A model generated the notes under the pieces. The model was not told the origin of the DNA, made no database searches, and saw only the letters and a list, made by a program, of their open reading frames with translations. Shown one piece after another: positions 2,907-20,814 of a DNA stretch of 20,814 bases (its first letter is position 1; each line of letters begins with the position of its first letter). Source of the DNA: a virus. Made by a program: the position numbers and the translations under genes. Location of the stretch: positions 1 to 20,814 of IMG/VR virus record IMGVR_UViG_3300011116_000790. The stretch is one strand, 5' to 3'.

Positions 2907-3092
2907 TTAGATTTCATAATCTGGAAACAAATATGTAAAACATTTTTTCAATTCATCATCCTCTAAATCAGAAATAGCCAAAGAAGGATCTTTCTTCTCC
3001 ATCAATTTAAAAACAAGAGCAACTTTTTCTTCGCCGAATATTCTTTTTGCTTCATCAACAGTTTTTGATTTAATTACGGTCATTTTAATCAT
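2907..3092 (-). CDS. Hypothetical protein, 61 aa
   Basis: The family is not recognised. It is a small acidic helical protein (D-E-A-K-R-I-F-G-E-E-K, then S-D-L-E-D-D-E-L-K-K-C) with no membrane segment. The first ATG (3090-3092) overlaps the smpB stop by 8 bases; a second ATG at 3081-3083 lies one base after that stop and gives a 58-residue protein, and either could be used by coupling. Its place directly after smpB and before the terminator makes it the last gene of the clpP-smpB transcript, so an accessory role there is possible but not shown. Confidence 0.65.
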   Translation of the reverse strand: MIKMTVIKSKTVDEAKRIFGEEKVALVFKLMEKKDPSLAISDLEDDELKKCFTYLFPDYEI

Positions 3093-3507
3093 ATTTCTTC
3101 ATTTCTCTTGATAAATCCCTCTCCTTAATCGCTTCTCTTTTATCCCAATTTTTCTTTCCTTTTGCTAAAGCTATCTCGACCTTAATCTTGCCCTTCTCGT
3201 TCTGGTAGATCCTAATTGGGATGATGGTTGTTCCTTTATCTGAAGAGCTTTGGATCTTTTGAATTTCTTTCTTTTTTAATAGAAGTTTTTTATCTCTTTT
3301 TGGATCGTGCTGAAAAGAACCAGGCCTTATTGAAATCTCAAGTGATTTAATCCATATCTCTCCCTTACTGATGTAACAGAAGCTATCCACAAGATTGACT
3401 TTCAGCTCTTTGATTGATTTCACTTCTGATCCAAGAAGTGAAATCCCGGCACTAAATTTCTCAATGAAAAAATAGTCAAATTTGGCTTTTCTGTTTATAA
3501 TCTGCAC
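3085..3507 (-). CDS. smpB: SsrA-binding protein SmpB
   Basis: SmpB binds tmRNA and brings it to stalled ribosomes, where a degradation tag is added to the nascent chain. Conserved blocks run through the whole protein: N-R-K-A (5-8) with D-Y-F-F-I-E, A-G-I-S-L-L-G-S-E-V-K-S (20-31), H-D-P-K-R-D-K-K-L-L-L (67-77), E-I-Q-K-I, K-G-T-T-I-I-P (91-97), and A-K-G-K-K-x-W-D-K-R-E (115-125). The 140 residues cover the OB-fold core; the tail after D-K-R is short (about 17 residues) and lacks the longer basic helix of E. coli SmpB, so tmRNA accommodation might differ. The start is GTG (3505-3507), 5 bases after the clpP stop, indicating coupled translation. A perfect 12-bp inverted repeat lies inside codons 21-31. 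Phage-borne SmpB is uncommon. Confidence 0.95.
   Translation of the reverse strand: MQIINRKAKFDYFFIEKFSAGISLLGSEVKSIKELKVNLVDSFCYISKGEIWIKSLEISIRPGSFQHDPKRDKKLLLKKKEIQKIQSSSDKGTTIIPIRIYQNEKGKIKVEIALAKGKKNWDKREAIKERDLSREMKKYD
3416..3445 (-). repeat. Perfect 12-bp inverted repeat inside smpB
   Basis: GATTTCACTTCT (3416-3427) and AGAAGTGAAATC (3434-3445) are exact reverse complements separated by six bases. They lie 62-92 bases into the smpB reading frame and would form a stable mRNA hairpin. No T-run follows on the minus strand, so it is not a standard terminator. Confidence 0.85.
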
Positions 3508-3512
3508 TATTT

Positions 3513-4196
3513 CTATTTCTTCTTAGATTTCTTCTTAATTATAACTTCGTCAATGATTCCGTATTTAACTGCATCGTTTGCATTTAACCAGAAATCTCTT
3601 GTTGCATCCTTCATAACTTGTTCTGAAGTTTTGTCGCAGTAACCTCCCAATAGATCGAAAAGGATCTGGTTGACCTCTTTCCATTCTTTCATGTCAATCT
3701 CTGCGTCCTGAATATTTCCTCTGAAACCTCCGCTTGATTGGTGGAGCATCACTTTACTGAATCTCAAAGAGCTTCTTTTTCCTTTGGTTCCAGCTCCCAA
3801 TAAAACTGATCCCATTGAAGCTGCCATTCCAGTATTTACTGTCCTAATATCTGCTGTGATGTACTCCATGACATCTATCATAGATAAACCCGATTTAACG
3901 GATCCTCCGGGGGAATCGATGTGCATAGTTATATCTCTATCATCAACAGAATCTAAAAACATTAGTTGAGCCTGAACCACTGTTGACATGTTGTCGTTAA
4001 CCTCACCTGCAACCCAAATTATCCTGTCCATTAGCATTCTTGAGAAGATATCAATTTGTGTTGCTCTTAATTCTCTTTCTTCCAAGATATAAGGAGTCAT
4101 TGAAGACTGAATTTTCTTGTCGAAATAATCTAATTTAAGTGAAGATATACCATGTTCACTTAAAGCGAATTTTTCGAATTCTGATTTTTGATTCAT
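3513..4196 (-). CDS. clpP: ATP-dependent Clp protease proteolytic subunit ClpP
   Basis: ClpP is the barrel-shaped serine protease that degrades substrates fed by ClpX or ClpA, including SsrA-tagged proteins. The catalytic triad is visible and correctly spaced: S127 in G-M-A-A-S-M-G-S, H152 in M-L-H-Q-S-S-G-G, and D201 in A-T-R-D-F-W-L. Oxyanion-loop residues D-S-P-G-G-S-V (94-100) and the C-terminal N-A-N-D-A-V-K-Y-G-I-I-D (205-216) also fit. The 227-residue length, with an N-terminal extension of about 35 residues that may be a propeptide, and a Lys-rich C-terminus (KKKSKKK) are acceptable. No ClpX or ClpA partner is in the window; it may use the host unfoldase. As a phage gene it could serve as a prohead protease, but a typical ClpP beside smpB points to turnover of tagged proteins. 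Confidence 0.96.
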   Translation of the reverse strand: MNQKSEFEKFALSEHGISSLKLDYFDKKIQSSMTPYILEERELRATQIDIFSRMLMDRIIWVAGEVNDNMSTVVQAQLMFLDSVDDRDITMHIDSPGGSVKSGLSMIDVMEYITADIRTVNTGMAASMGSVLLGAGTKGKRSSLRFSKVMLHQSSGGFRGNIQDAEIDMKEWKEVNQILFDLLGGYCDKTSEQVMKDATRDFWLNANDAVKYGIIDEVIIKKKSKKK

Positions 4197-4209: not shown

Positions 4210-4905
4210 TTACGTTTTGTACCACTTTTCCCATTTTTTACTTTTTAACCTTCCTCTTATAGTAGCCTTAGTTATTCCTAATGTTTCAGATGCTATTGCT
4301 ATAGATGGGTAGACAATTCCATCTATTGATATTTTTACCTGATTCCAGACATTCCCCTTCATTTTGTCCGAAAGTTTTTTATTCTTCTTACCTTTTTTAG
4401 ATTCGCTTATTTTGTCCTTTGTTTCTTCTGAATGTTTCCTACCGTACCATGGGTGATTCTCACCGGCCTGAGATTTCTTCATATTTTCTTTATGTGTTTC
4501 AGATAGCTTAATTCCTTTCTTTGCGATTGACATTTTTTCCTTGGTCTCCTCTGAAAATATTCTATTTTTCATTTTCAAACTTTTTTGTTCAGCTATTTTT
4601 TCTATTTCTAGATTGTCTTTCTTGTATATCCAATCCCCACCACCATCTCCACCTAAAGTTAGATTATACCCTTCGTGATAACTGTTGAATTTTTCTATAT
4701 AAAGTTTTTCTAGTCTATTAAGTTCTTCGACATCTTTTATATTATCATGAAGAATAATTCTTTCGAATATCTCCTTTCCGTGTTTTTTAATTATTTTATT
4801 TGGTATAAGACCTCCTGTAAAATAATTCTTTTTACCTCCGTTATGTTTACCGATATATTTCTTCCCATTCCTGGTATCTATTAAAAGATAAATCTGGCCT
4901 CTCAT
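4210..4905 (-). CDS. GIY-YIG homing endonuclease with NUMOD3 repeats
   Basis: The N-terminal catalytic domain (about 1-95) has the two signature elements, Q-I-Y-L-L (4-8) and K-Y-I-G-K (16-20), an E-K-L-Y-I-E-K-F helix (66-73) with the metal-binding Glu, and the closing G-Y-N-L-T-L-G-G-D-G-G. Three NUMOD3-type DNA-binding repeats follow (about 115-131, 132-150, 155-173; S-E-E-T-K-E/D-K-x-S pattern), then a NUMOD1/helix-turn-helix-like end (187-222). This is a free-standing endonuclease that cuts an allele lacking it and spreads by repair. It lies between clpP and an unknown gene with no sign of an intron in either. Composition is Lys-rich and more AT-rich than its neighbours, fitting a recent arrival. 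Confidence 0.94.
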   Translation of the reverse strand: MRGQIYLLIDTRNGKKYIGKHNGGKKNYFTGGLIPNKIIKKHGKEIFERIILHDNIKDVEELNRLEKLYIEKFNSYHEGYNLTLGGDGGGDWIYKKDNLEIEKIAEQKSLKMKNRIFSEETKEKMSIAKKGIKLSETHKENMKKSQAGENHPWYGRKHSEETKDKISESKKGKKNKKLSDKMKGNVWNQVKISIDGIVYPSIAIASETLGITKATIRGRLKSKKWEKWYKT

Positions 4906-4997: not shown

Positions 4998-5342
4998 TTA
5001 ATTTTTTAATTTTATTTCTTTCCATTCAATTGGTTTCGTGTATTTGCAAGTTAGAGTGATTTTATCAATAACTGGGTGATTGAATCTTATTTTCTCTATA
5101 ACTAAATATTTCCAATCGCTATCATAGTGACCCAGATCTGTACCTCTGAAGCCTCCGGCTTCACATGTTGTGTAAGGTCCGCCAACAGGATCAAACATAA
5201 GAATATTTCCATCGTCATCCTTTGTTATCCTCATGAAGGAAGTATCCATCCCCTCCATCTCGAATTCCAGCTCAGATTTTCTGACTATTAGTATAGAAAC
5301 ACCAGAACGGTTGATGTATGTTATTGCTTTACCAATTCCCAT
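4998..5342 (-). CDS. Hypothetical protein, 114 aa
   Basis: The family is not recognised. It appears soluble and beta-rich, with alternating hydrophobic strands (G-V-S-I-L-I-V, E-L-E-F-E-M-E, N-I-L-M-F) and a central Gly-rich segment (P-V-G-G-P-Y-T-T-C-E-A-G-G-F-R-G, about 52-67). No signal peptide or membrane helix is visible. Its ATG (5340-5342) lies inside the last codons of the upstream membrane-protein gene, a 14-base overlap that implies coupled translation and perhaps a shared role at the membrane. Confidence 0.72.
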   Translation of the reverse strand: MGIGKAITYINRSGVSILIVRKSELEFEMEGMDTSFMRITKDDDGNILMFDPVGGPYTTCEAGGFRGTDLGHYDSDWKYLVIEKIRFNHPVIDKITLTCKYTKPIEWKEIKLKN

Positions 5343-14597: not shown

Positions 14598-14858
14598 TTA
14601 TTGAATTGAATTTTTCTTAAGATTGATGTTCAAAGAATCCACTATGATGATTGCTCTGCCCCAGTTAATATCTGGTGACAGAGCTATAATGTCATCTGGT
14701 CCGTTGTCAATATTAACCCTGATTTTAGGAACTCCTTGACTGTACTCACCAGAGAGTTGATATTCGATAACTCTCTTCGGTGCTGTAGCGTAGTAAATAC
14801 CTAATCCCAAAAGGGTCGAGATGACTAGCATCAAAAAATATTGCCAAACTTTTTCCAT
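14598..14858 (-). CDS. Small single-pass membrane protein, 86 aa
   Basis: The family is not recognised. One N-terminal hydrophobic helix (about 6-24, F-L-M-L-V-I-S-T-L-L-G-L-G-I-Y-Y) acts as anchor or uncleaved signal; about 60 residues that are probably periplasmic follow, beta-rich with P-K-I-R-V-N-I-D-N-G-P-D-D. No lipobox Cys is seen. The ATG overlaps the stop of the NAMPT gene by one base (TAATG), indicating coupled translation, and the SPFH gene follows 22 bases later. A partnership with the SPFH protein is plausible from position alone. Confidence 0.75.
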   Translation of the reverse strand: MEKVWQYFLMLVISTLLGLGIYYATAPKRVIEYQLSGEYSQGVPKIRVNIDNGPDDIIALSPDINWGRAIIIVDSLNINLKKNSIQ

Positions 14859-16414
14859 TAGATTATTGAATTAATGCGGTTACGAATTTCTGTTAATGTT
14901 GCCTGATTATGGAAGTGTCCATCTTCGTAAATCGTTTGAAGAATTCCTCCAGCTTCTTCTTCTGGAGTACATTGGGTCTTAACCTCGTACTTCGTGTAGG
15001 TCTTGCCGGTTTCTTCAGATGTTGCTGTGATTTCATCCACTCTAATAAGACCTTTCAAAGATTTTTTAGTACCATCATCGGTTACTGGATCTTTGTAGAT
15101 GTCGTAACAAACTTTTTTGTAGACAGGAGTTCCTTCAGGTGTTATCCAATCAATTTCTTCTACCTCAAACCAAGCTCCCTTAGCTGCAAACCCTAATGTG
15201 TCTCGTGTGTTCATTTGGTATGTGAAAGAACCTACACCCAATACAATGTTAGTTGCAGCAAATCCTTTTGCTTCCAATCTTTCGTAGATTTGGATTTGAC
15301 GATCCAATGTGATTGAATCTCCGTAGATGGCTCCGATGTGCGGGTCAAGAACTTTATAACCTTGTTCGTTAACTGTACCTCCGAAAATATCCCAAAGAAG
15401 TTCAATAACGCCTTTGTAAGATGGATGGTTCGCTTGTTCTGCCGAAAACATTTCTGGACGAGTGTTTAATCCGCAGATAATATCTACTGGATCACCTGAA
15501 TCAGGTCTAATTACCAATTTACCATCTCTAGCCATAATAGCTTCTTTATTAGCTGGTAAATATTCAGTGATTAATTTCCAAAGGTCGAACGTGTCGCTAA
15601 CAATACTCAAAATTCCTTTAGGGAAATCTGTTAGCCAATCAGCGATCATTTGTTGTTCACCAACGGTAAAGATCTTAGTGGTTGATACAGAGTGCTCTGA
15701 TGCGTTCACCGAGTATATCGCAACCTGATCTTTAGGCTCATCGTAGAAGTAACGTGCTCCAGGGATACAGATAATTGTATCCGATCCTAAGAATGATGAT
15801 GCGTGTCCTAATCCACTTGATAACATATCCCAAGGACTTAGACCTCGTGCTGAGAAGTCGTGACAAAGGAAAGGAATCAGGAAAGCGTTAGATGGATCTG
15901 TTTTCATAACCCATTTCACAACGTTTCTCTTGTATTGAAGAGCGATGGTTGCAGAGGTTGAAGGCTTCCATGCTAATGAAGAAATGATGGTTTCCAAATA
16001 AAGTGTTAACCAAGCAAATCCATCCACGGTGTTAATAAAGGTCATATGAGGCACGTTAGGCTGTGTCTCGATTCCTTCCGGTAAAGCTTTTACCCTGATT
16101 GGTAGATAACCCAAATCATACAAAGCTTCGAAGTGAGAGGCATCGTAATTCATACCCAAATACATAGACATATCCTTTCCGAATTGCATAGCTTCTGCTT
16201 TTGGAATGCTGAAGAAGTTTTCTGCGAATTCGTCATGGAGCCATCTCATGGCCAATTGCTGGCCAAATGATAAAATTCTTTGCACTCCTTTAGGTGCGTG
16301 TTTGATGCTGCGGGGAATCCAAGTTCCGTAAAGACGGGTGGTTCCTTTAGCCAACATCCTCTTATGGCCAATCTTGTAACCATCGGTGTAAAATAAAGTT
16401 GAAGGTTTGAACAT
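14858..16414 (-). CDS. nadV: Nicotinamide phosphoribosyltransferase-like enzyme (NAMPT/NadV; candidate Namat of NARP1)
   Basis: The enzyme joins nicotinamide to a pyrophosphorylated ribose. With PRPP the product is NMN; in the NARP1 pathway NAMPT-like Namat uses ADP-ribose-pyrophosphate and makes NAD+ directly. Visible sites (numbered from the ATG at 16412-16414) are F-Y-T-D-G-Y-K-I-G-H (8-17, with the substrate-binding D11), H-D-F-S-A-R-G (185-191), the catalytic His in S-E-H-S-V-S-T (H241), R-P-D-S-G-D-P (303-309), G-D-S-I-T (365-369) and G-S-F-T-Y-Q-x-N-T-R-D (395-405). The 518 residues are slightly longer than human NAMPT (491) and look complete. The frame opens earlier at a TTG (16447), but the ATG fits the family start and a TAnnTTTG element 31 bases upstream. 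Sequence alone does not separate NMN-forming from NAD+-forming members. Confidence 0.95.
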   Translation of the reverse strand: MFKPSTLFYTDGYKIGHKRMLAKGTTRLYGTWIPRSIKHAPKGVQRILSFGQQLAMRWLHDEFAENFFSIPKAEAMQFGKDMSMYLGMNYDASHFEALYDLGYLPIRVKALPEGIETQPNVPHMTFINTVDGFAWLTLYLETIISSLAWKPSTSATIALQYKRNVVKWVMKTDPSNAFLIPFLCHDFSARGLSPWDMLSSGLGHASSFLGSDTIICIPGARYFYDEPKDQVAIYSVNASEHSVSTTKIFTVGEQQMIADWLTDFPKGILSIVSDTFDLWKLITEYLPANKEAIMARDGKLVIRPDSGDPVDIICGLNTRPEMFSAEQANHPSYKGVIELLWDIFGGTVNEQGYKVLDPHIGAIYGDSITLDRQIQIYERLEAKGFAATNIVLGVGSFTYQMNTRDTLGFAAKGAWFEVEEIDWITPEGTPVYKKVCYDIYKDPVTDDGTKKSLKGLIRVDEITATSEETGKTYTKYEVKTQCTPEEEAGGILQTIYEDGHFHNQATLTEIRNRINSII

Positions 16415-16444
16415 ACTATTAATATTTTTTATAATATTGAACTG

Positions 16445-16452
16445 CAAAGATA
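16445..16452 (-). promoter_or_regulatory. Bacteroidota-type -7 element TATCTTTG before the NAMPT gene
   Basis: TATCTTTG on the minus strand matches TAnnTTTG and lies 31 bases before the ATG at 16414, in the 63-base gap after the HAD gene. No TTG is seen at the -33 spacing. It would give NAMPT and the downstream genes expression independent of the genes before them. Confidence 0.4.
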
Positions 16453-18643: not shown

Positions 18644-19123
18644 TTATGAGTTTTTTATCTGTTGTTTAACTAAAGTAATTGACCATCCTAAAAGATTTAG
18701 TCCTTTCCAATTTGCTGGATCGTCTACTCCCGGATCTTGCTCCGACATTCCAATTCCCCAAATTTTATCCAAAGGTGAAGCTTCAACGAGAAGTCTGTCA
18801 CCAGTAGAGAGAAGCTCTTCCATCAAATCTGGATTTTGTGAGAACTTAGCAAAGTTTCCTCTATAAACTATGCCTAAGCAAACTGAATCCCATTTATCCT
18901 TATCGAATCCTTTGATTTGTCTTCCTAGTCCTTTCTGATCTTTTGGATTTGAGGTCTGTAGAACTTTTTCGGCAATCTCAGAATCACCAAAGGTTAAAGC
19001 CTTTTGGTGCATCATGTACTGCTCACAGCAGTTATATTGAACACCGTCTATTGTCATTGGGGCTTTGTGCCATTGTGAGTATATTCCATTCCAGAAAAAT
19101 ACGTGTTTGTTAGTTGATATCAT
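18644..19123 (-). CDS. NADAR-domain protein (YbiA-like ADP-ribosyl glycohydrolase)
   Basis: The domain spans the whole protein: F-F-W-N-G-I-Y-S-Q-W-H (9-19), Y-N-C-C-E-Q-Y-M-M-H-Q-K-A (30-42), F-G-D, K-G-L-G-R (64-68), A-K-F-S-Q-N-P (92-98) and the signature V-E-A-S-P-L-D-K-I-W-G-I-G (113-125). Characterised NADAR proteins remove ADP-ribose from guanine bases, reversing DarT-type DNA modification, and related members process NAD-derived or riboflavin-pathway intermediates. In a phage this would undo toxin-driven ADP-ribosylation and release ADP-ribose, which the PRPP-synthetase-like gene of this cluster could recycle if it is an Adps. The 159-residue length is normal. It is separated by 6 bases from the gene before it. 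Confidence 0.9.
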   Translation of the reverse strand: MISTNKHVFFWNGIYSQWHKAPMTIDGVQYNCCEQYMMHQKALTFGDSEIAEKVLQTSNPKDQKGLGRQIKGFDKDKWDSVCLGIVYRGNFAKFSQNPDLMEELLSTGDRLLVEASPLDKIWGIGMSEQDPGVDDPANWKGLNLLGWSITLVKQQIKNS

Positions 19124-19129
19124 ATTTTA

Positions 19130-19411
19130 TTATTGTTCTTTTGAAATTTTTAACATCTCTTCTAATCCTAGCTCCTGAATCGATATCACCAAATCTGCTA
19201 TTCTGATATCCATATCAAGTTCTTTACAGCAGACTAAAGCAAACTCTTCGCTTATTGTAAATCCAGAATCAACCAAATCAACAGCAAGATCGAATCCTTC
19301 CACAGTAATAACAGGCCCACCCTCTAAAAATCCACCTTCTCTGAGTTTGTTGCAGTAGTAGATGAAAACTATTGCACCGTTTCTATTAATTTCTTCTTTC
19401 CAGTCTATCAT
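19130..19411 (-). CDS. Hypothetical protein, 93 aa
   Basis: The family is not recognised. It is an acidic alpha-beta protein: W-K-E-E-I-N-R-N-G-A-I-V-F-I-Y-Y-C (4-20), a Gly-rich turn (E-G-G-F-L-E-G-G-P), then two similar acidic helices containing F-D-L-A-V-D-L-V-D-S and I-R-I-A-D-L-V-I-S. Three Cys residues have no obvious metal pattern. The ATG overlaps the macrodomain stop (ATGA), and the NADAR gene starts 6 bases later. Its place between two ADP-ribose-processing genes makes it a candidate accessory factor. Confidence 0.72.
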   Translation of the reverse strand: MIDWKEEINRNGAIVFIYYCNKLREGGFLEGGPVITVEGFDLAVDLVDSGFTISEEFALVCCKELDMDIRIADLVISIQELGLEEMLKISKEQ

Positions 19412-19938
19412 GATTTCTTGTATATTACGACCGTGACATCACAGTCTCTAAGTTCCTGTTGAATGATGGCTTTGATTCTGTTCCAATTTCCTCCTGCCAA
19501 GCCTGAACCTATGGCCGGTAGACCTATTCTTTTACCCCTGAATGTGTGATTCATTTTTCTCAGACAAAGAGTCAAAGCTTCGTAATCCAAAGGTCTCGCT
19601 ACACCATCGGAGTGATTTGCTCCGTAGTTGTATTGGCTGTATGAGTTCACCACATACATCTTATGAAGTATCTCATCGCCTTCATCCGGATACCTCTCGT
19701 ACTTCTGATCCCAGCTAGAAAAGAACAAAAGCTCGTAATCAATTGTGCCTAATTTATTAATGTCACCTTTATATTCCTCGCTCTCCATTTTAAAGATATC
19801 ACATCCAAAAGCTTTAGCCATCTGTGGTGCTATTCCAGCTCCCATTGTGCAGTGACAGTTACATCCGTGTGTGATGACGTCGAATTCGAATTGATGAGCT
19901 ATCTGAATTAAATCTCCGTGGATTTCTTTATAAGACAT
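19408..19938 (-). CDS. Macrodomain protein (Appr-1''-p-processing/ADP-ribose hydrolase type)
   Basis: The macrodomain ADP-ribose pocket is visible: G-D-L (8-10), D20 with V-I-T-H-G-C-N-C (21-28), the Gly-rich loop M-G-A-G-I-A (32-37), and the second loop P-A-I-G-S-G-L-A-G-G-N-W (141-152). Family members bind ADP-ribose and hydrolyse ADP-ribose-1''-phosphate, O-acetyl-ADP-ribose or ADP-ribosyl groups on protein or DNA (as DarG does for thymidine). The G-C-N-C-x-x-x-M-G-A-G-I-A version is common in phage and Poa1-type proteins. At 176 residues it is a single complete domain. The start lies one base after the stop of the PRPP-synthetase-like gene, and the next gene overlaps its stop, so the three are translationally linked. 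Confidence 0.92.
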   Translation of the reverse strand: MSYKEIHGDLIQIAHQFEFDVITHGCNCHCTMGAGIAPQMAKAFGCDIFKMESEEYKGDINKLGTIDYELLFFSSWDQKYERYPDEGDEILHKMYVVNSYSQYNYGANHSDGVARPLDYEALTLCLRKMNHTFRGKRIGLPAIGSGLAGGNWNRIKAIIQQELRDCDVTVVIYKKS

Positions 19939-19939
19939 A

Positions 19940-20719
19940 CTAAAATACGTTAAGTTGTTTTAAGTTGATTGGTTTCATGCTTTTAGATGTTCCGACACTA
20001 CCTTCAGGAAGATCCTTAATTGAATTTGTGCAGTATATTCCATCGAAGTGCTCTCCAAGTTCTTCGAATCCTGCACTGAAGATACCATGAGTAACAATTA
20101 GAAATATTTTACCATGTTGATCCGGGTGAACTGCTGAACTTAAACTTCTGGTAATTTTGATGGCTTTAGCAATCTCAATGAATGTGCGTCCACCGTCACA
20201 GATGTCATCGATGATAAAAAGATCCTTGTCAGCATCATGAACTGAAAGAGGAACTGAAGTGTGTGTGATTTGTCCACTCACAGGATCACGATGTTTGGCT
20301 GCAATAACAATTTCATGTTTTAGACCAAATTTTTCTGAAATATGATAGACCTTTTTCAAAGCACCAGCATCAGGAGAAACCAATCTAACATTTGTGAAAT
20401 CATAATAAATATCTAGATCATCGAAATAATCATTAAATGCGAAGTCAACAACTTCCGAGTTGTCGATTTTTTTGAAGTGATCTATGCATGCCTCAAGAAC
20501 ATCAGAATGTGGATCCACGATTTCAACCTGACTGAATTTTTGAAGATTGATGATAGGTGCAATAACATTCTTGATGTAGTTGAAACCTCCATCTGAAAAC
20601 TTCCTGTCTGATCTTCCGCCAATACAATATGGAATGTAAAGATCAATATTCTCAACACCAAGTTCTCTTAGTGCGTGGGTTGCTCCAATGATTAATTCCA
20701 AATCCTTGAAGCTATTCAA
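19940..20719 (-). CDS. prs: PRPP-synthetase-like enzyme (candidate Adps of NARP1), C-terminal part after an in-frame stop
   Basis: Family marks include I-P-Y-C-I-G-G-R-S-D-R-K-F (29-41, equivalent to I-P-Y-x-x-Y-A-R-Q-D-R), V-D-P-H-S-D (83-88), V-S-P-D-A-G-A-L-K-K, K-H-R-D and the PRPP-loop motif D-D-I-C-D-G-G-R-T (about 191-199). PRPP synthetases move pyrophosphate from ATP to ribose 5-phosphate; the related NARP1 enzyme Adps does so to ADP-ribose. The usable start here is a TTG (20717-20719), but the same frame upstream reads R-V-K-I-K-S-R-L into it, which belongs to the family fold, and is cut off by TAA at 20750-20752. Beyond that stop the frame again carries family sequence. A protein begun at TTG would lack part of the N-terminal ATP-binding half, so activity is doubtful unless the stop is bypassed or is an error. 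Confidence 0.85.
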   Translation of the reverse strand: MNSFKDLELIIGATHALRELGVENIDLYIPYCIGGRSDRKFSDGGFNYIKNVIAPIINLQKFSQVEIVDPHSDVLEACIDHFKKIDNSEVVDFAFNDYFDDLDIYYDFTNVRLVSPDAGALKKVYHISEKFGLKHEIVIAAKHRDPVSGQITHTSVPLSVHDADKDLFIIDDICDGGRTFIEIAKAIKITRSLSSAVHPDQHGKIFLIVTHGIFSAGFEELGEHFDGIYCTNSIKDLPEGSVGTSKSMKPINLKQLNVF

Positions 20720-20749
20720 TCTTGATTTAATTTTAACTCTTTTGATTGT

Positions 20750-20814
20750 TTAAAAGTCCTGATAGCCGATTGCTGGGCTTTCCAAAATTTGGATTGATTG
20801 TTGTCCATCTGGAA
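20750..20814 (-). pseudogene. prs: N-terminal fragment of the PRPP-synthetase-like gene, ending at in-frame TAA, partial
   Basis: In the frame of the downstream enzyme, the last 21 codons of the window read P-D-G-Q-Q-S-I-Q-I-L at their start, matching the F-x-D-G-E/Q-x-x-V-x-I strand that opens the ATP-binding half of PRPP synthetases, and then end at TAA (20750-20752). The spacing from P-D-G to the downstream N-S-F-K-D-L-E block, about 33 residues including the stop codon, is plausible for phage members. Both parts are in the same frame, so a single substitution (for example AAA to TAA) explains the break, with no need for a frameshift. The 5' end is outside the window. Confidence 0.6.

Follow-up and report, generated by a model that had tools for sequence, protein, structure and literature searches.

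Does the TAA codon that interrupts a PRPP-synthetase-like gene at the very end of a metagenomic phage contig exist in the phage itself, and, if so, could the phage still obtain a useful product from the gene? The window, i.e., the whole stretch of DNA that we analyzed, is a complete virus record of 20,814 bases, such that position 20814 is the contig end. The gene in question (Adps/Prs family, phrog_619; 19940 to 20812, minus strand) is cut at its 5' end by this contig end and contains one internal stop, at 20750-20752. Weighing the evidence below, we come down by a little on the side of an error at the contig end, either in a base or in the assembly, over a true, recent loss-of-function allele as a close competitor.

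A single TAA codon interrupts one continuous frame

Reading the minus strand from 20812, the position at which the frame of the 19940-20719 ORF has its first full codon, we found PDGQQSIQILESPAIGYQDF (20753 to 20812), then TAA (20752-20750), and then TIKRVKIKSRL leading into the 19940-20719 ORF, all in the same frame. The result is a single continuous minus-strand frame, PDGQQSIQILESPAIGYQDF-*-TIKRVKIKSRLNSF, which downstream of the TAA (TIKRVKIKSRLNSFKDLEL) stays open as far as the normal TAA at 19942-19940. This minus-strand reading confirmed the position and frame of the stop given in the initial annotation, as well as the residues R-V-K-I-K-S-R-L that it had listed after the stop, though it had omitted the T-I-K that precedes them. 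Its proposal that a phage Prs/Adps-family gene contains a single nonsense codon, or a single erroneous base, is likewise supported, as both sides lie in one frame, which also rules out a frameshift as the cause of the break. The TAA sits within a variable loop that connects the FPDGQQ and IKSRL strands, and the codons upstream of the stop carry the conserved (F)PDGQQ motif. Judged from the sequence, a conserved protein motif that lies in frame and with the spacing of the family is more than chance would be expected to produce.

The gene family starts upstream of the contig end

The 19940-20719 ORF matched phrog_619, ribose-phosphate pyrophosphokinase (E 7e-51), and contains a Pribosyltran domain. 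In tblastn searches, the joined frame aligned from residue 1 in relatives, with 47% identity to PrsA of Leptolyngbya phage Lbo-JY46 (XAI97306.1) and up to 62% identity to viral contigs, the best relative (L013) matching over the whole visible length. Homologous ORF alignments that read across the stop position numbered 111, and all 117 homologous loci that we examined were open there, with an aligned residue that varied widely among relatives, whereas PDGQQ was invariant or nearly so within the family pattern FPDGQQ...IKSRL. Lbo-JY46 PrsA and the uncultured viral relatives (L013-L092) belong to the same gene family, sharing this pattern and 46-62% identity over the visible length, but, unlike the window gene, they have intact frames that start upstream of FPDGQQ.

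The joined-frame alignment and the near-invariance of the motif establish that PDGQQ is homologous to the N-terminal region of the Prs/Adps family. It is not, however, the opening motif that it had been taken for: most of the 117 loci have a start codon ~18-30 residues upstream of it, and by comparison with these relatives PDGQQ is placed at about residue 24 of a protein of ~280-320 aa, with the true start predicted ~23 codons upstream, off the contig. Because most relatives start this far upstream and all 117 loci are open across the stop position, the TTG at 20717 to 20719 (minus strand), a start that a gene caller would choose, is not the family start; in the alignment it falls on the Leu of the family's IKSRL, immediately ahead of helix 59-75 in the L013 model. 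A family start near the TTG, which the initial annotation had named as an outcome that would overturn its reading, was thus not found, with nearly all loci starting upstream of PDGQQ.

Our searches of viral contigs found no close relatives of the 259-aa ORF or of the adjoining macro protein, and no second contig carrying the stop allele. The exact local pattern, with any codon allowed at the stop, likewise matched nothing in these contigs, and a degenerate version of it matched two records, both of them already-known relatives at ~60% identity.

The remainder of the gene is undecayed

We scored the window protein at near-invariant positions, defined as those with a conservation of 95% or more across the family. 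It deviated at 0 of the 62 such positions downstream of the TTG (other members, 0-8) and at 0 of the 6 upstream (other members, 0-5), and no further stop or frameshift was found in the gene. The lack of a second lesion and the unchanged 62 positions speak against a decayed pseudogene. With no decay on either side, the stop must be either very recent or absent from the phage; a very recent nonsense allele would still be compatible with such an undecayed gene. Upon screening the window for breaks with a query set of 2,450 ORFs taken from relatives, we found that no homologous minus-strand gene is broken except by the stop at 20752; the remaining stops mark gene ends, lie in another frame, or are antisense.

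The gene heads a putative NAD/ADP-ribose cassette

The cassette in the window comprises the Adps/Prs-like gene, an adjoining macro-domain-like gene (19408 to 19938; Pfam Macro, 5.6e-5), a NADAR-domain gene assigned to the same cassette by synteny (18644 to 19123; Pfam NADAR, 1.4e-50), a DUF1937 gene, and an intact Namat/Nampt-family gene (14858 to 16447), with the Adps, macro, NADAR, and Namat genes all on the minus strand. The order Adps-macro-NADAR-Namat recurs in two other large uncultured phages (G013 and G010). The Adps and Namat genes lie 3.5 kb apart on the same strand with the macro and NADAR genes between them, an operon-like arrangement.

A PRPP-synthetase-family first enzyme, as expected of NARP1, is found here both by the phrog_619 match and by the fold match of L013 to Prs. 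The NARP1 Adps proteins of SPbetaL1 and Bas63 (PMC12774641) resemble the window gene product in that they, too, are first enzymes of the Prs family and their phages also encode a Namat-family protein. In NARP1, ADPR is converted to ADPR-PP, which together with nicotinamide yields NAD+; the window enzyme may act on ADPR in this way or, as an ordinary PRPP synthetase, on ribose-5-phosphate. Namat proteins carry an ADPR-PP clamp motif, GSX-phi-X-phi-X-phi-TRD, with aromatic residues at positions 3 and 7 (PMC12774641). The window sequence, GSFTYQMNTRD, fits the motif and position 3 but has Met instead of an aromatic residue at position 7, as do 29 of 101 Namat relatives, and substrate preference in this clade may differ. 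The label NARP1 (Adps + Namat) is hence reasonable but unproven for the window pair, with PRPP-dependent salvage as an alternative.

Two relatives differed from the usual Namat layout. In IMGVR_UViG_3300032295_002777 (L101/L032, 5750-5870), a broken, partial second Namat C-terminus follows the intact Namat at ~85% identity and with two stops; it is a remnant of a tandem duplication. In L118 (10001-11863), the Namat homolog match spans ~1.86 kb compared to ~1.55 kb, which suggests an in-frame insertion, possibly an intein or an extra domain.

An error at the contig end is the favored source of the stop

If the stop is an error, the locus would be an ordinary phage Adps/Prs-family gene in a NAD-rebuilding cassette, and its TAA would stem from one incorrect base, or from a join between mixed strains, where the metagenomic contig runs out and is poorly supported; in the phage itself, the frame would be open and the full enzyme would be made from the upstream start. 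We consider this reading just better than an even bet. That a base at the stop is wrong we infer. Only 62 bases separate the stop from the end of the complete record, which the initial annotation could not take into account. Were a real stop placed at random, the chance of its landing no more than 65 bases from one end or the other would be only ~0.6%; the position favors an error because end-of-contig errors by definition lie there. In the same direction point the standing of the stop as the sole broken frame among window genes with homologs, the lack of decay on both sides, and the absence of a stop from all 117 homologous loci. Against it, the remainder of the terminal 62 bases looks error-free, and natural inactivation of pathway genes in phages is documented (PMC11559045).

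As a base-rate control, we searched the homologous genes in the relatives' loci for internal in-frame stops. The interior scan returned 62 raw stops in ~768 kb of homologous coding sequence, of which we inspected 15, mostly the best supported. Most of these were gene ends or wrong-frame ORFs, and one, nrsB of phage ICP1, was a clear mid-gene nonsense; the L032/L101 case proved to be the Namat remnant described above. Genuine mid-gene nonsense is hence rare in this sequence set, which speaks for an error. The corresponding control covered the outermost 150 bases of 85 contig ends, where 5.7 kb was homologous and held 0 stops. This is too little to gauge the end-error rate, for which our literature search gave no usable figure, and so to prove or exclude an excess of errors there.

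A real nonsense allele has a precedent in ICP1

The alternative that we rate next, at somewhat under even, is a real and recent nonsense allele, through which the first enzyme of a NARP1-like pathway disappeared from the phage, or from some of its population, with Namat intact. Such a loss would be tolerated or favored where hosts lack NAD+-depleting defenses and the pathway is then costly. The strongest argument for it is the direct precedent of ICP1, in which the homologous pair nrsAB counters the NADase defense Nezha, the Namat-like nrsB carries Y29* in 60 of 75 genomes, and nrsAB is absent in five (PMC11559045). In a host without Nezha, the nrsB stop allele outcompeted the functional allele (PMC11559045). 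Our scan for in-frame stops picked up this nrsB stop independently of that work (L008), and we recovered it again in ICP1 2019_Mat_D (MW794191.1; L136), where a one-base insertion additionally frameshifts nrsA, the Adps homolog (467-1320). This frameshifted nrsA is annotated only as a hypothetical protein.

The window resembles ICP1 in having a nonsense codon near the N-terminus of one NAD+-rebuilding gene with an intact partner, as in most ICP1 isolates, and the truncation of the protein near its N-terminus is in favor of a real allele. The two cases differ in that in ICP1 the second gene is hit, in an allele studied by experiment and seen in many isolates with complete genomes, whereas in the window it is the first gene, in one metagenomic fragment and at its very end; furthermore, ICP1 nrsA and nrsB are adjacent, while the window Adps and Namat genes are not. 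A real allele must also accommodate the short distance to the contig end, the full conservation without a second lesion, which would require it to be very recent, and the lack of a second contig with the allele among the viral contigs searched.

The more specific notion that a wild phage lineage switched off Adps by one nonsense codon, keeping the Namat gene and the macro/NADAR cassette intact, we regard as possible but doubtful. If true, such an Adps-off lineage would mirror the nrsB allele of ICP1, suggesting that on/off alleles of NARP1 arise repeatedly, driven by host defenses. A real stop would be the second natural nonsense allele in a phage pathway that rebuilds NAD+, and it would lend support to the view that such genes are costly to phages where hosts lack NADase defenses. 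Natural on/off alleles in this pathway are, however, an already known kind, and no new mechanism is at work at this TAA. Should the stop instead be the error that we favor, the gene is an ordinary uncharacterized member of a widespread phage family, and a warning against over-reading the last bases of a metagenomic contig.

Chimerism, restart, and recoding are improbable

Sequence shared by related strains often causes assemblies to break, and the last ~60 bases could in principle derive from the gene of a different but related phage, with the stop at the junction. The ESPAIGY segment, which has a three-residue insertion compared to the aligned relatives, would fit such a chimeric end. We nevertheless hold it to be very improbable, given that frame and spacing across the junction match the family and that no match to the exact local pattern turned up in any other viral contig.

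Equally slim is the chance that the phage obtains a useful product despite a real stop, either because the TAA is read through or because translation restarts at the TTG, 30 bases further downstream. The fully conserved frame downstream of the stop would agree with this, and the leader before the TTG is A-rich, resembling those of other window genes, such that a weak restart is compatible with the sequence; as window genes generally lack clear Shine-Dalgarno sites, we dropped the lack of one as an argument against the TTG. The predicted fold argues against it. Modeled with AlphaFold2 (mean pLDDT 88), the full-length relative L013 matched PRPP synthetases, with a TM score of 0.70 for the E. coli enzyme (7xmu). 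Cellular PRPP synthetases (E. coli Prs, human PRPS1) have the loop F-S-D-G-E; the intact relative matches their fold at a TM of about 0.7, but identity is 16-20%, and FPDGQQ replaces the Prs loop. The TTG corresponds to Leu56 in the L013 model, and a product started there would miss strands 4-6, 18-22, 28-32, and 50-53 as well as the FPDGQQ motif. Lacking four core strands of the Prs-like fold, a TTG-started protein is unlikely, on this model, to be functional, which also speaks against the two-piece protein that had been suggested.

Readthrough fares no better. TAA is the main stop of the window, terminating 23 of its 31 genes, the only tRNA found in the fragment is a tRNA-Met, with no suppressor tRNA in the window, and no relative has a stop at this site. 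The earlier exclusion of a general TAA reassignment hence stands, suppression of the TAA appears unlikely, and programmed readthrough or another recoding event, which had also been offered, appears very unlikely and was rejected.

Other features of the window

Elsewhere in the window, phage-encoded SmpB (3085-3507) adjoins a ClpP-like protease (3513-4196), with both genes intact. Between the ClpP-like gene and the gene at 4998-5342 lies an ORF resembling NUMOD3/I-TevI-type homing endonucleases (4210-4905).
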